Source of the DNA: Lachnospiraceae bacterium
GTDB taxonomy: Bacteria > Bacillota > Clostridia > Lachnospirales > Lachnospiraceae
Reading direction: 5' to 3'
NCBI GenBank assembly: GCA_020860755.1
Contig: JAJBTQ010000014.1
Coordinates: forward strand, 1 to 50,855
DNA length: 50,855 bases
In this document: positions 38,927 to 44,564 of the stretch, in pieces
How the letters are laid out: every line of letters begins with the position of its first letter
How positions within the stretch are numbered: the first letter of the stretch is position 1
Notes under the pieces: model-generated
What the model was told of the DNA's origin: nothing
The model's database searches: none
What the model saw: the letters and a program-made list of their open reading frames with translations, nothing else
Translations under genes and position numbers: made by a program

Positions 38927-40750
38927 ATGGATGCACTGCTCAAATTTATCACATGCGGCAGTGTGGATGACGGAAAGTCTACACTGATCGGACATATGCT
39001 CTACGATGCGAAGCTCATCTTTGCGGACCAGGAACGGGCGCTGGAATTGGATTCCAGAGTCGGTTCGCGCTCAGGCAAGATCGATTACAGCCTTCTCCTT
39101 GACGGCCTCATGGCCGAGCGGGAGCAGGGGATCACGATCGATGTGGCCTATCGCTATTTTACGACGGAAAACCGCTCCTTTATTGTCGCGGACACGCCGG
39201 GACATGAGGAATATACGCGGAATATGGCTGTAGGCGCTTCGTTTGCGGACCTGGCTGTCATTTTAGTGGACGCGAGTCAGGGTGTTTTAACCCAGACAAG
39301 GCGTCACACGCGTATCTGCTCACTGATGGGTATCAAGCACTTTGTGTTTGCCATCAACAAGATGGATCTCATCAATTACGAAAAGACAAAATACGACAAG
39401 ATCGAGAAAAATATAAAGATCCTGCTGGCAGAGTTTGACTACAAGACGGCAGTGATGATCCCCGTCTCCGCCACGGAGGGAGACAACATCACCGTAAAGT
39501 CTTCACGGATGCCGTGGTATAAGGGGCCGACCCTTTTGTCCTATCTGGAAACGATCGACGTGAAAGAGGATCCGGCGGAGACCGGCTTTACGATGCCCGT
39601 GCAGCGCGTCTGCCGGCCGAACCACACCTTCCGCGGATTTCAGGGACAGATCGAGAGCGGCAGCATATCCACCGGCGATGAAGTGACTGTTCTTCCGAGC
39701 GGGGAGCGCGCGGCGGTGGCTTTGATCTATCGGGGCTTCGACGAAGTGCCGACTGCGTCTGCCGGCATGGCGGCGACGATCCAGCTCGACTCCGAGATTG
39801 ATGTCTCCCGCGGCTGTGTTCTTGTAAAGGATGCCGAAGAGTGTGTCAGCCACATGTTTGAGGCGACACTTTTGTGGATGGATGACAGTACCCTGATGGA
39901 GGGGAGAAACTATCTGCTGAAACTCGGCACACAGCGGGTGCCGGCCACAGTCATGCGGATCAAGTACAAGATCGACGTGAACACCGGCGAAGAGCTCAAT
40001 GCCGACACGATCTATAAAAACGAGATCGCGCGCTGCGATATCGCGGTCTCCACACGGGTCGTCTTCGACCGCTTTGAAAAGAACAATGCACTTGGATCCC
40101 TGATCTTAATCGACCGGGTCTCCCACATGACTTCCGCCTGCGGCGTCATCGAGCACACGTTGAACCGCGGGCATAACCTGACATGGCAGGATACGGATAT
40201 CACCCGGGAGTTCCGTGAGAACCAGCTCGGACAGCAGGCGAGGACCATTTGGTTTACCGGCTTGTCCGGCGCCGGCAAGTCTGCGCTGGCCAATGGCCTT
40301 GAGAAGCGGCTGGCCGCCATGGGCAGGCATACGATGCTCTTAGACGGAGATAATGTCCGCATGGGTTTAAACCGGAACCTGGGCTTCAGGGAGCAGGACC
40401 GGATCGAAAATATCCGGAGGATCGCGGAGGTTTCCAAGCTCTTAAACGATGCAGGTCTGATCGTGTTAAACGCGTTTATTTCCCCCTTTAACCGCGACCG
40501 GAAGCAGGCGCGAGAGATCATCGGGAACGCCTATATCGAGGTCTATGTCAGCACACCGATCGAGGAGTGCGAGCGTCGGGATGTAAAAGGTCTTTACAAA
40601 AAGGCCCGCGAGGGAGAGTTGGACAACTTTACCGGCATCACGAGCCCGTACGAGGTACCGGAGCACCCGGATATCGTGATCGACACCAGCAAAGGAACGC
40701 TGGAGGAGTGTGTTGACGAACTGCTCGAGCAGCTGATGGATCTTTTGTGA
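38927..40750 (+). CDS. CysN-CysC fusion: sulfate adenylyltransferase GTPase subunit plus APS kinase
   Basis: A 607-residue fusion. The N-terminal part is an EF-Tu-like GTPase: G1 GSVDDGKS (11-18), G3 DTPGHEEY from residue 89, G4 NKMD, then two beta-barrel domains. GTP hydrolysis by this part drives APS formation by CysD. From about residue 430 comes APS kinase, with Walker A GLSGAGKS at 445-452 and LLDGDNVRMGLNRNLGF, which phosphorylates APS to PAPS. The fusion is a known arrangement in many bacteria. It begins directly at the cysD stop. No PAPS/APS reductase or sulfotransferase is nearby, so the fate of PAPS is not visible here. Confidence 0.95.
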   Translation: MDALLKFITCGSVDDGKSTLIGHMLYDAKLIFADQERALELDSRVGSRSGKIDYSLLLDGLMAEREQGITIDVAYRYFTTENRSFIVADTPGHEEYTRNMAVGASFADLAVILVDASQGVLTQTRRHTRICSLMGIKHFVFAINKMDLINYEKTKYDKIEKNIKILLAEFDYKTAVMIPVSATEGDNITVKSSRMPWYKGPTLLSYLETIDVKEDPAETGFTMPVQRVCRPNHTFRGFQGQIESGSISTGDEVTVLPSGERAAVALIYRGFDEVPTASAGMAATIQLDSEIDVSRGCVLVKDAEECVSHMFEATLLWMDDSTLMEGRNYLLKLGTQRVPATVMRIKYKIDVNTGEELNADTIYKNEIARCDIAVSTRVVFDRFEKNNALGSLILIDRVSHMTSACGVIEHTLNRGHNLTWQDTDITREFRENQLGQQARTIWFTGLSGAGKSALANGLEKRLAAMGRHTMLLDGDNVRMGLNRNLGFREQDRIENIRRIAEVSKLLNDAGLIVLNAFISPFNRDRKQAREIIGNAYIEVYVSTPIEECERRDVKGLYKKAREGELDNFTGITSPYEVPEHPDIVIDTSKGTLEECVDELLEQLMDLL

Positions 40751-40828: not shown

Positions 40829-42187
40829 GTGGGTAAATACTTTGGAACAGACGGCTTCCGTGGCGAGGCCAACGTGACACTGACAGTAGAACACGCGTAC
40901 AAGGTGGGCCGCTTTTTGGGATGGTATTATGAAAAGCTGTCCGGGAGACCTGCAAAGGTCGTGATCGGAAAGGACACCAGGAGATCGAGCTATATGTTTG
41001 AGTACGCACTCTCGGCCGGGCTGACCGCTTCCGGTGCAGACGCCTATCTGCTGCACGTAACGACCACGCCGTCCGTATCCTATGTGGTGCGCACGGATGA
41101 CTTTGACTGTGGCATTATGATCTCCGCCAGCCACAATCCCTATTACGATAACGGGATTAAATTGATCAACGGAAAAGGCGAAAAGATGGACGAGGAGACC
41201 ATCGCCTATATCGAGGATTATTTAGACGGTCATGTGAGCCTGTTCGGAGAGGAGTTTGATGAGCTCCCGTTTGCCGTCCGGGCCGGGATCGGCCGCACCG
41301 TGGACTATTCTGCGGGGCGAAACCGCTATGTCGGCTATCTGATCTCTCTGGCGATCTACTCTTTTAAAGACAAGCGCGTCGGCCTTGACTGTGCCAACGG
41401 CAGTGCCTGGATGATCGCAAAGAATGTGTTTGACGCGCTCGGCGCGAAGACTTATGTGATCGGAGCCGAGCCGGACGGGACCAACATCAATGAGGATGCC
41501 GGATCCATACACATAGAAGCGCTGCAGCAGCTTGTGCGCGAGAACCAGCTGGATGTGGGATTTGCCTACGACGGCGACGCGGATCGCTGCATCGCGGTGG
41601 ATGAAAACGGGGATGTCGTTAACGGGGATCAGATCCTCTATATCTACGGCAAATATATGAAGGAGAGGGGCAAGCTGTTAAACAATACGGTTGTGACGAC
41701 GGTCATGTCCAACTTCGGACTCTACAAAGCGTTTGATCAGGCAGATATCGGATACGAAAAGACCGATGTCGGCGATAAATATGTCTATGAGAATATGCAG
41801 CAAAACGGACACCGCCTCGGCGGCGAGCAGTCCGGCCACATCATATTCTCAAAATATGCGACCACCGGCGATGGGATCCTGACCTCCATCAAGATCATGG
41901 AGGTGATCCTGGCGAAAAAGATGCCGCTGTCAAAACTGGCAGAGCCGGTCCGGATCTATCCGCAGGTCTTAAAGAACATCCAGGTTGAGAGCAAACAGGA
42001 AGTGTTATGTGCTCCGGCTGTACAGGAGGCTGTCCGCAGCGTGGAGGAGGAGCTCGGCGATACCGGCCGGATCCTCGTCAGGGAGAGCGGAACAGAGCCG
42101 CTCATCCGCGTTATGGTGGAGGCGGAGTCTGAGGATGCGTGCGAGACCTATGTAGAGCAGGTGCTCGAGGTGATCCGGAATTTATAA
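40829..42187 (+). CDS. glmM: Phosphoglucosamine mutase
   Basis: Interconverts glucosamine 6-phosphate and glucosamine 1-phosphate on the way to UDP-GlcNAc and peptidoglycan. The 452-residue protein starts MGKYFGTDGFRGEAN. It has the phosphoserine loop ISASHNPYYDNG with Ser101 as phosphate carrier, the metal loop AYDGDADRCIAVD, the sugar loop LGGEQSGHI and the phosphate-binding RESGTEPLIRVMVE. Start is GTG at 40829 behind AGAGGAG. In many Firmicutes it lies directly after cdaR and its product inhibits CdaA; here ptsH, cysD and cysNC intervene. Confidence 0.95.
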   Translation: MGKYFGTDGFRGEANVTLTVEHAYKVGRFLGWYYEKLSGRPAKVVIGKDTRRSSYMFEYALSAGLTASGADAYLLHVTTTPSVSYVVRTDDFDCGIMISASHNPYYDNGIKLINGKGEKMDEETIAYIEDYLDGHVSLFGEEFDELPFAVRAGIGRTVDYSAGRNRYVGYLISLAIYSFKDKRVGLDCANGSAWMIAKNVFDALGAKTYVIGAEPDGTNINEDAGSIHIEALQQLVRENQLDVGFAYDGDADRCIAVDENGDVVNGDQILYIYGKYMKERGKLLNNTVVTTVMSNFGLYKAFDQADIGYEKTDVGDKYVYENMQQNGHRLGGEQSGHIIFSKYATTGDGILTSIKIMEVILAKKMPLSKLAEPVRIYPQVLKNIQVESKQEVLCAPAVQEAVRSVEEELGDTGRILVRESGTEPLIRVMVEAESEDACETYVEQVLEVIRNL

Positions 42188-42207
42188 AAGAAAGGTAGGT
42201 GAGGCGT

Positions 42208-43333
42208 GTGGTCGAGTTGGATAATTTTAAGACAACTATGAACGAATACCGTCACCCGCTGCAGGAAGTAAGGGATTCACTTTAACCTCTCTTACAAGGA
42301 ACAGCGGATAGAAGAACTGGAAAGAGAAATGGAAGCGCCGGATTTTTGGAATGATCCGGAGCGCTCCCAGCAGATGACAAAAGAACTAAAGAGCATGAAG
42401 CAGGATGTTCAGACGTACGACGAACTGCAGTCCATGGCGGACGACATCGACACTATGATCGAGCTGGGATATGAGGAGAACGATGATTCTCTGATCCCGG
42501 AGATCGGGGAGATGATCGACGAGTTTGAGCATACCTTCGACAGTATCCGAATGAAGACGCTGCTCTCCGGTGAGTTTGACGCGGACAACGCGATCCTGAC
42601 CCTTCACGCCGGCGCCGGAGGGACCGAAGCCTGCGACTGGGCGGATATGCTGTACCGCATGTACAGCCGTTGGGCAGTCGCGAAGGGCTATGACCTCGAG
42701 GTGCTGGATTTTATGGACGGCGACGAGGCAGGCCTTAAGTCGATCACATTCCAGGTAAACGGCGAGAATGCATACGGATACTTAAAGTCTGAGAAGGGCG
42801 TACACCGACTGGTGCGCATCTCCCCGTTCAACGCGGCGGGCAAGCGCCAGACCTCCTTCGCGTCCTGTGACGTGATGCCGGAACTGGAGGAAGATCTGGA
42901 AGTCGAGATCAATGACGAGGATTTAAAGATCGACACCTACCGGGCCAGCGGGGCCGGCGGACAGCACATCAACAAGACGTCCTCGGCAGTTCGCATCACG
43001 CATCTTCCGACCGGGATCGTGGTTCAGTGTCAGAATGAACGCTCGCAGTTCATGAACAAGGACAAGGCGATGAAGATCTTAAAATCCAGGCTCTACCTGC
43101 TGAAACTGCAGGAAAACAAAGAGCGCGTGGATGAGGTCCGCGGGGAGCTGACTGACATCGCGTGGGGCAACCAGATCCGCTCCTACGTCATGCAGCCCTA
43201 CAAGATGGTCAAGGATCTTCGCACCAACGAGGAGACCGGAAATGTAGATGCAGTCATGGACGGGGATATCGACCGCTTTATCAATGCGTATCTGAAGTGG
43301 GTCGCGCTGGGAGAACCGGACATGAATCAATAA
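42208..43333 (+). CDS. prfB: Peptide chain release factor 2, read through a +1 frameshift
   Basis: Releases peptides at UAA and UGA codons. The gene is split: a GTG at 42208 opens a 25-codon leader ending CTT TAA at 42280-42285. A +1 shift on CTT then continues with AAC at 42284 to the stop at 43333, giving 374 residues. With this reconstruction the tripeptide SPF falls at 205-207 and GGQ at 250-252, the same numbers as in E. coli RF2, which supports the joined reading. The shifted sequence continues LNLSYKEQRIEELEREME, a normal RF2 continuation. TAAGG at 42269-42273 supplies an internal Shine-Dalgarno-like stimulator. The stop in the slip site is TAA rather than TGA. A tRNA anticodon-like domain swap or pseudogene is not suggested. 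Confidence 0.93.
42269..42286 (+). other. prfB: +1 programmed frameshift site of prfB with TAA stop
   Basis: The elements are TAAGG (42269-42273), GATTCA, the slippery CTT (42280-42282) and TAA (42283-42285) followed by C. Aligned on the anti-Shine-Dalgarno complement TAAGGAGGT, the end of the duplex register falls two bases before CTT, matching E. coli AGGGGGT-AT-CTT. Only the stop codon departs from the canonical CTT-TGA-C. Confidence 0.85.
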
Positions 43334-43361: not shown

Positions 43362-44564
43362 ATGATAAAGATTGCTGTGATGGGCTACGGGACCATCGGT
43401 TCCGGAGTCGTGGAAGTATTGGAAAAAAACAGAGACATCATCGCTAAGAGGGCAGGAGATGAGATTACAGTCAAGTATATCCTGGACCTCCGCGAGTTTC
43501 CGGGGGATCCCCATGAGGATATCCTGGTCCATGATTATGAGATCATCCGCTCGGATCCGGAGATCCTTGCCGTGGTCGAATGCATGGGAGGCGTGGAGCC
43601 GGCCCACACGTTTGCCCGGGAGGCGATCCTGGCGGGCAAGCATTTTGCCACCTCAAACAAGGCACTGATCGCGGAGTACGGACCGGAGCTCATCGCCCTT
43701 GCGCAGGAGCGGAATTTAAACTGCCTGTTTGAGGCCAGCGTGGGTGGAGGGATTCCCATTATCCGACCCTTAAACAGCTGCCTGACCGCTGACGTGATCG
43801 AGGAGATCTCCGGCATCCTAAACGGTACGACCAACTATATGATGACAAAGATGTCCGAGGAGGGATCGGAGTTTGATGAGGTCTTAAAAGATGCCCAGCA
43901 GAAAGGATTTGCCGAGGCTGACCCGACAGCGGATATCGAGGGATATGACGCCTGCCGGAAGATCGCGATCTTAACCTCCCTGATCTGCGGAAATCAGGTC
44001 GACTACGAGGACATCCCCACACAGGGCATCTCCGGGATCACCGCGACCGACATCCGCTATGCGACTGCTATGGGAAGAAAGATCAAGCTGATCGCTTCAA
44101 GCTACAAGACCGAGAACGGTTACTGCGCGTTTGTAGCGCCGGTCATGCTGGCGCCCGGCAATGCGCTGCACGGTGTGGACGGTGTCTTCAATGCGATCTT
44201 TGTCAAGGGGAATATGCTCGGTGACGCGATGTTTTACGGGAGCGGTGCCGGCAAGTTGCCGACGGCCAGCGCTGTCGTGGCCGATATCGTGGATATCGTA
44301 CGGCACAAAAATGTGAGTATTACGATGCAGTGGTCTGCCGACAAGATGGTGCTGGAGGATGCCAGACAGCTCTCCTGCCGCTATTTCGTGCGGACAACGT
44401 CCGCAAAGGATCGGATCGGAGAGGCCTTTGGACCGGTTCAGTACGTAAGCGCCGAGGGGATCACGGGTGAGACCGCGTTTGTCACAGAGGAGATGGATGG
44501 GTTCGCGTTTGAAGAAAGGCTTGCCGGACTGAAAGGCGTACGGCAGTGGATCCGTGTAAATTAA
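43362..44564 (+). CDS. hom: Homoserine dehydrogenase
   Basis: NAD(P)H-dependent reduction of aspartate semialdehyde to homoserine, leading to threonine and methionine. In 400 residues there is an N-terminal Rossmann motif GYGTIGSGVVEVL, the catalytic region TSNKALIAEYG, the family signature SGILNGTTNYMMTKM and the DPTADIEGYDACRKIAIL substrate motif. The remaining C-terminal segment (about 335-400) looks like a short ACT domain, so allosteric control is possible but not certain. Starts 28 bp after prfB and ends at a strong bidirectional terminator. Confidence 0.95.
   Translation: MIKIAVMGYGTIGSGVVEVLEKNRDIIAKRAGDEITVKYILDLREFPGDPHEDILVHDYEIIRSDPEILAVVECMGGVEPAHTFAREAILAGKHFATSNKALIAEYGPELIALAQERNLNCLFEASVGGGIPIIRPLNSCLTADVIEEISGILNGTTNYMMTKMSEEGSEFDEVLKDAQQKGFAEADPTADIEGYDACRKIAILTSLICGNQVDYEDIPTQGISGITATDIRYATAMGRKIKLIASSYKTENGYCAFVAPVMLAPGNALHGVDGVFNAIFVKGNMLGDAMFYGSGAGKLPTASAVVADIVDIVRHKNVSITMQWSADKMVLEDARQLSCRYFVRTTSAKDRIGEAFGPVQYVSAEGITGETAFVTEEMDGFAFEERLAGLKGVRQWIRVN

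Follow-up and report, generated by a model that had tools for sequence, protein, structure and literature searches.

The programmed +1 frameshift in prfB, the gene encoding release factor 2 (RF2), is the textbook autoregulatory frameshift, and the RF2-readable stop codon at the shift site is a main argument that RF2 autoregulation is the purpose of this switch. The prfB gene of a Lachnospiraceae bacterium, which resides in a 50,855-nucleotide stretch of DNA (contig JAJBTQ010000014.1; the whole stretch is hereafter called the window), raises the question of how such a loop might operate when the in-frame stop is TAA instead of the usual TGA, a replacement that was noticed in a preliminary description of the locus and that we confirmed by direct reading. 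In the portions drawn on here, a survey of 8,164 prfB sites, or genomes (Prince, Lin and Feaga, mBio 2025; PMC12421855), gives TAA for 1.4% (about 114 by our own arithmetic) in several phyla, TGA for 98.6% and TAG for none, reports that TAA is not broadly fixed within clades, and argues that TAA sites remain RF2-sensitive; the shift consensus given in the excerpted part of Antonov 2013 is YTT_TRA_C. The window site, with the same cassette as the CTTTAA sites in that part of the survey, is by itself a further member of the published TAA minority.

All parts of a canonical +1 frameshift cassette are present in the window (Table 1), namely, a zero-frame leader with its stop, RF2 in the +1 frame, a stimulator in register, the slippery CTTT, and C after the stop, which is readable by RF2 but is not the RF2-specific TGA. 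The E. coli-type shift site (CTT TGA C with an internal Shine-Dalgarno sequence) is the same in leader length, stimulator register, CTTT, the C at position +4 and the placement of RF2 in the +1 frame, and differs in the stop (TAA in the window, TAG in some relatives) as well as in the stimulator and spacer, which are UAAGGG or UGAGGG and GAT TCA here, where we take the E. coli counterpart letters to be AGGGGG UAU. Measured from CTT, UAAGGG occupies the register that AGGGGGU has in E. coli. Joined across the shift, the window RF2 comprises 374 amino acids and scores 534.8 bits against TIGR00020 (cut-off 370), with the RF1 models below their own cut-offs; its motifs, S205 P206 F207 and G250 G251 Q252, are invariant across 37 aligned proteins and occupy what we take to be the E. 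coli positions. The preliminary description, which had called the remainder of the cassette canonical (slippery CTT, stimulator register, and a full-length RF2 with SPF and GGQ), was accurate on these points. The window also holds a fused sulfate adenylyltransferase subunit 1/adenylylsulfate kinase gene (cysNC, 38927-40750) upstream of glmM-prfB. The genome encodes RF1 with the PxT motif, from a prfA gene on a separate contig (G000:C18), and RF3.

Table 1. Features of the prfB locus and its surroundings in the window
Feature	Coordinates	Strand	Remarks
glmM (TIGR01455)	40829..42187	+	context; 20 nt upstream of the prfB leader
Purine-rich ribosome-binding stretch	42193..42204	+	AGGTAGGTGAGG; 5' of the leader start; identified by eye
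prfB zero-frame leader ORF	42208..42285	+	25 codons from GTG, then TAA; peptide VVELDNFKTTMNEYRHPLQEVRDSL, then stop; 3' end GTA AGG GAT TCA CTT, TAA, C; frame present across the genus
Shine-Dalgarno-like stimulator UAAGGG	42269..42274	+	E. coli register to CTT; contains an RF2-frame stop, TAA, at 42269-42271
Slippery CTTT	42280..42283	+	Leu CUU (42280-42282) able to slip +1 to UUU; CTT in 20/20 genus members
In-frame stop TAA	42283..42285	+	replaces the usual TGA; read from the sequence
C after the stop	42286..42286	+	weak termination context; C in 20/20 genus members
Main RF2 frame of prfB, entered by the +1 shift	42284..43333	+	349 codons and stop TAA (43331-43333); first codon AAC (42284), Asn26
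Homoserine dehydrogenase gene	43362..44564	+	context; 28 nt downstream of prfB

The stimulator GTAAGG doubles as an RF2-frame stop located 15 nt before the shift, and in relatives with GTRAGG this position holds TAA or TGA; such stimulator-borne stops mislead automated stop counts for the window and its genus. The automated tally reports one TAA in 18 of the 19 non-window genus rows, only five of which (L012, L015-L017 and L020) have TAA as the shift stop, and none for L018, where the shift stop is TAA. Because the tally catches the TAA of the stimulator and not the shift stop, the shift stops had to be read from the sequence.

Read in this manner, the shift stop in the window's genus (20 genomes, all with a prfB match) is TAA in seven (L001, the window's own, with L012, L015-L018 and L020) and TGA in 13. 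The 12 nt 5' of the stop (AGGGATTCACTT) and the C that follows it are identical in all 20 genomes, AGG GAT TCA CTT being invariant as the upstream leader codons vary, and TAA and TGA interleave within the genus on the RF2 tree. It follows that TAA occurs naturally, is inherited and has come and gone repeatedly, and that TAA at the window site is not a sequencing error; the possibility raised in the preliminary description that close relatives all carry TGA, with this genome a lone exception or an error, does not agree with the seven TAA carriers.

The family census covered 299 Lachnospiraceae genomes from 298 genera, with pattern searches that detect only sites with (G)GGATTCACTTT. TAA was found in prfB of 34 genomes (the window's and a contig-edge case, L213, included), TAG in one (G302), and the TGA motif in 168, the latter being a pattern count for which 85 loci were fetched and 84 verified (L277 of G038 is not RF2); one genome, G313, was tallied under both TGA and TAA, and its prfB has TAA. 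The 97 genomes that match none of the three patterns have no frameshift, another spacer, or a missing gene. Among 71 occurrences of the TAA pattern, reading covered all 36 that have spacer A, of which 34 lie in prfB (G302:C44 and G223:C5 do not), and 18 of the 35 with other spacers, none of which is RF2. Set against the published 1.4%, 33 TAA genomes and 169 non-TAA genomes (the window's own left out) yield an odds ratio of about 14, which serves only as a guide because the rows are non-independent, the samples differ, and half of the TGA loci are pattern-only. Exact matches to named contigs for 11 census loci carry Lachnospiraceae names in nine cases and broader clostridial names in two. A search for TAA sites among named contigs returned at least 119 contigs, and for 111 of those listed the TAA site could be read within prfB; among the matches listed, ten contigs were doubtful, nine of which show an RF2 start and one of which (L193) has just 28 nt remaining. 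The TAA isolates among the matches listed are Blautia parvula NBRC 113351 (a complete chromosome), Eisenbergiella porci, Clostridium vitabionis, Ructibacterium gallinarum (DSM 107454), Lachnoclostridium sp. An14 and Parablautia sp.

In 13 genomes from four families, the in-frame stop of prfB is the RF1-specific TAG, which RF2 does not read, and the rest of the cassette is intact. Two genera account for most of these sites. The first is that of G302 (CTT TAG C), in which seven of eight genomes have a prfB match, six with TAG and one with TAA, and the prfB genes of the six TAG species are about 75-90% identical in nucleotides. When the family was sampled more widely (397 genomes), TAG in prfB turned up in this genus only, with three candidates (L368-L370) rejected as not RF2. 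The second, that of G547, has TAG in five of the five genomes sampled and emerged from a sample of 291 genomes of the class Clostridia, which also added single TAG genomes from two further families, G500 and G447, and another candidate (L419) rejected as not RF2. Readable relatives of G500 have TGA (4/4) and those of G447 have TAA (3/3). TGA was not counted in the class sample, which therefore yields no rates. The family of G547 was sampled in 31 genomes, 28 of them readable, and these comprise 23 with TAA, five with TAG, and none with TGA. The L337 locus (G323) is a TAA prfB inside the otherwise TAG genus of G302, which would be explained by two gains of TAG, by a reversion or by an unresolved genus tree. 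In G433:C128, the TAA pattern occurs twice (L421/L440), 227 nt apart and beside a run of N, which is possibly an assembly or masking artefact.

SPF is kept in RF2 in all seven prfB genes of the G302 genus, PxT and GGQ in RF1 in the seven genomes with a long RF1 match, and RF3 is present in all seven genomes of this genus tested; the G323 RF1 is fragmentary (L345), and that of L449 does not match the strict motif pattern and rests on a 313.9-bit match. Missing RF1 was rejected as an explanation since RF1 is seen in TAG genomes, and so was missing RF3, which is present in 12 of 12 genomes tested in a sample without G500, G447 and the genus of G547. A scan for tRNA-Leu(GAG) or a stop-reading anticodon found none in 32 stretches of G302 and G000 and decides nothing because it spans only part of each genome. 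We found no report of a natural TAG prfB site in the literature searched (open-licence papers, mostly at listing level). Among the excerpted sources, the closest precedents are a UAG-based series in which 32 variants of CUU were tested (Atkins 2016; PMC5009743) and engineered E. coli RF2 windows with CUU UAG and the RF2 stimulator (PMC2680264), whose output follows RF1 activity, with termination relative to shift falling from 1.30/1.42 in the parent to 0.06-0.18 when RF1 is mutated; those constructs carry UAGA or UAGU, whereas the natural sites described here have UAGC within prfB itself.

How often has the stop changed? After removal of duplicates (six rows before tree construction and, by protein, before the residue and stimulator counts), an RF2 tree of 156 rows (109 TGA, 41 TAA and 6 TAG) requires at least 31 stop changes, or 27 with branches under 80 support collapsed and 18 with those under 95 collapsed. 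Shuffled labels require 38-47, 33-46 and 21-30 changes, respectively, so that the stop states cluster on the tree more than expected by chance. The tree is weak in places: support falls below 80 on 63 of its 154 inner branches. A separate tree of 64 RF2s, for which long-branch warnings were issued, requires at least four changes between TAG and the other stops.

The stop overlaps the RF2 reading frame, and therefore the protein and its control evolve together. RF2 codon 26 consists of the last two bases of the stop and the following C (T-GAC, T-AAC and T-AGC), which encodes Asp, Asn or Ser, and the residue is one of these in all 109 TGA, 41 TAA and 6 TAG rows. Among 16 frameshift-free RF2s, a set that includes L045 and leaves aside L452, L453 and L460 for their unusual shift site, it is Asp in ten, Asn in four, Gly in one and Lys in one. 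Residues 26 and 29 (42284-42286 and 42293-42295 in the window) covary: residue 29 is Asp or Glu in 20 of 41 TAA proteins and in one of 109 TGA proteins (Fisher p ~1e-12, from non-independent rows with the frameshift-free L045 counted as TGA). In an AlphaFold2 model built from 37 sequences (mean pLDDT 79.2), helices at 2-24 and 27-41 are separated by a break at 25-26, which places residue 26 at a predicted helix-cap position and residue 29 three further on. Asp, Asn and Ser are all favoured just before a helix, Ser being a common cap. The exchange between TGA and TAA accordingly has an easy path through the protein, with Asp and Asn at the cap position both used by frameshift-free RF2s.

Several compositional and structural accounts of TAA were considered and set aside. 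The suggestion in the preliminary description that the stimulator might be strong enough to force the shift is not supported: TAA and TGA sites use the same stimulators (GTGAGGGATTCA in 20/41 and 46/109, GTAAGGGATTCA in 14/41 and 19/109, respectively), and a crude duplex energy, with the anti-Shine-Dalgarno sequence assumed, is -5.5 kcal/mol for the window against -10.7 kcal/mol for E. coli. Low GC content as a driver is likewise unsupported, given that prfB third-position GC is 0.598 in TAA and 0.524 in TGA types (p 0.002, again from non-independent rows with L045 counted as TGA); in TAG types it is lower, 0.383 (n=6). A special residue 246 in the RF2 of TAA types was rejected because Ser occupies this position in 36 of 41 TAA and 93 of 109 TGA proteins; the window RF2 has Ala246.

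The neighbourhood of prfB differs among these bacteria. In class-level families, prfA often directly follows prfB, and, with starts placed by motif, the gap is 11 to 33 nt in seven TGA types (L445, L446, L459, L475-L477 and L479) and ranges from -1 to 84 nt in those TAA types for which a start was located; adjacency is thus insufficient as a cause of TAA, because TGA types have it as well. The overlap TAATG between prfB stop and prfA start in L447, L449, L456 and L492, which include TAG and TAA types, suggests translational coupling. At the TAG locus L329, prfB sits between secA and a small ORF, with homoserine dehydrogenase next (names assigned by eye).

Taken together, we consider it probable that the window cassette works, with its sensor stop changed from UGA to UAA, and that it still regulates RF2 while also sensing RF1, the autoregulation being weaker but not lost. 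By analogy with E. coli, when release factors are scarce, the ribosome would pause with CUU in the P site and the internal Shine-Dalgarno sequence paired, and would then slip to UUU and make RF2; with an ample supply, termination at UAA would fall to RF1 as well as to RF2. The loop would sense RF2 plus RF1 because both factors end translation at UAA. The preliminary description was right that RF1 can compete at this codon, and a blunting of RF2 feedback by RF1 is plausible: RF2 reads UAA too, and in E. coli, according to the part of PMC5373646 drawn on here, UAA is shared between RF1 and an RF2 of the Ala246 type. Frameshifting at the window site, the share of each factor in termination and the feedback are what we infer from these comparisons, and if RF1 dominates at UAA, feedback on RF2 could be almost nil. 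The switch from UGA to UAA would be easy because the stop overlaps the first RF2 codon, where frameshift-free relatives already have Asp or Asn, and the same change appears to have reached TAA fixation, and even TAG, in several lineages of Clostridia.

These observations could also be read in other ways. The genomes are mostly metagenome assemblies, which might invite an explanation by sequencing or assembly error, or by reassignment of TAG or TAA; given the many species involved, the TAA in the complete chromosome of B. parvula and in the R. gallinarum isolate, and the use of TAG as the final stop in 25 among 168 long ORFs across 290 kb read from G302, with RF1 intact, this explanation is largely refuted and its probability negligible. 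A loss of feedback that leaves the site as a decaying relic, with RF2 supplied by near-constant shifting or from a downstream start (for example, the ATG at 42329), would fit with termination by RF1 at UAA or UAG regardless of the RF2 level and with the loss of the prfB switch reported as common in bacteria in the excerpted part of PMC13245932; the conservation of these sites speaks against it. Across the TAA and TAG groups tested, no synonymous change occurs in the final four leader codons and a single nonsynonymous one does (L486, one of 17 f20 TAA genomes), and in both TAG genera neither AGG GAT TCA CTT nor the C behind the stop varies, while codons further upstream in the leader change. 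Leader codon differences in the G302 genus number 72 synonymous and eight nonsynonymous (15 pairs), a ratio that fits a selected shift site and not a relic; those in the G547 genus (36 and 26, ten pairs) are weak evidence for the leader peptide itself. Since, furthermore, frameshift-free genes of the same family have no cassette, we regard decay as very unlikely.

Two further alternatives accept a maintained cassette and differ on what selects the stop. Selection or drift at residue 26, with residue 29 as its partner, could set the stop, with the regulatory effect incidental; the association of the two residues, seen also among frameshift-free RF2s (Asn29 accompanies Asp26 in seven of ten and Asn26 in none of four), and the predicted position of residue 26 before a helix speak for such a by-product, whereas the 98.6% TGA of the published survey, in the part drawn on here, exceeds the Asp:Asn split of frameshift-free RF2s, and TAG lacks support from these proteins because Ser26 occurs in none of the 16. 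We therefore consider the protein an unlikely driver. Alternatively, the change could be adaptive, such that UAA would read the total release capacity (RF1 plus RF2) and UAG would read RF1, giving an RF1-autoregulated operon where prfA is adjacent and cross-control of RF2 by RF1 elsewhere. The retention of TAG across the species of the G302 and G547 genera, the sampled family devoid of TGA, the short gap (-1 to 15 nt) between prfB stop and prfA start in every one of the seven operon-type TAG genomes, and the tracking of RF1 activity by the UAGA and UAGU windows in the excerpted PMC2680264 are in line with such rewiring; against it, prfB and prfA are neighbours with TGA too, the TAG genus of the window's family has prfA elsewhere (on a separate contig in its six TAG genomes), and the interleaving of TAA and TGA in the window's genus resembles tolerance. 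Adaptive rewiring is thus rather doubtful, and our preference remains with a working cassette whose autoregulation is weakened but not lost.

For the TAG sites, we advance a more specific proposal from sequence, tentatively and at somewhat less than even confidence, that in some Clostridia CTT TAG C lets RF1, and not RF2, decide RF2 synthesis, that a coupled prfA would turn this gate into RF1 autoregulation, and that TAA would be a two-factor intermediate between RF2-only and RF1-only control. A UAG gate before a coupled prfA would amount to RF1 feedback, and in the TAG genomes of the G302 genus, with prfA elsewhere, RF1 would control RF2 across loci; the window has no UAG sensor with prfA directly downstream. 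The authors of a 2021 paper (PMC8073009), in the part drawn on here, knew of no report of RF1 autoregulation. In E. coli and Salmonella, hemA precedes prfA and ends in a weak UAGC stop, which the excerpted PMC2680264 mentions as a possible RF1 sensor; readthrough and a weak prfA start were suggested there, whereas the sensor here would be a +1 shift in prfB.

A different arrangement was observed in three species of one genus from another clostridial family (L452 of G533, L453 of G508 and L460 of G579; RF2 at 73-77% nucleotide identity). Their leaders end in GAT TCA CTC TGA or TAA, RF2 lies in the +2 (equivalently, -1) frame and not in the +1 frame in all three, and the +1 frame used elsewhere stays open for 2-12 codons only; a +2 slip from CUC to CUG or CUA, both Leu, would fit these sequences. 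We found nothing on such a prfB site in the literature searched.

What is new here, on present sequence evidence, is the natural occurrence of TAG as a variant of the prfB switch, together with a family in which no readable sampled site is TGA; the survey PMC12421855, in the part drawn on here, lists no TAG and describes TAA as not broadly fixed. The thirteen natural TAG sites, in four families and retained through most or all readable species of a genus in two cases, break the rule of no TAG in 8,164 genomes. They supply natural TGA, TAA and TAG alleles in closely related backgrounds, which open to direct test what the feedback is worth, how much of the termination at UAA falls to RF1, and possible control by RF1; the window's genus holds both the TGA and the TAA alleles. 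The TAG sites predict RF1-gated synthesis of RF2, and if this is true, a textbook feedback loop would have been rewired in these bacteria.
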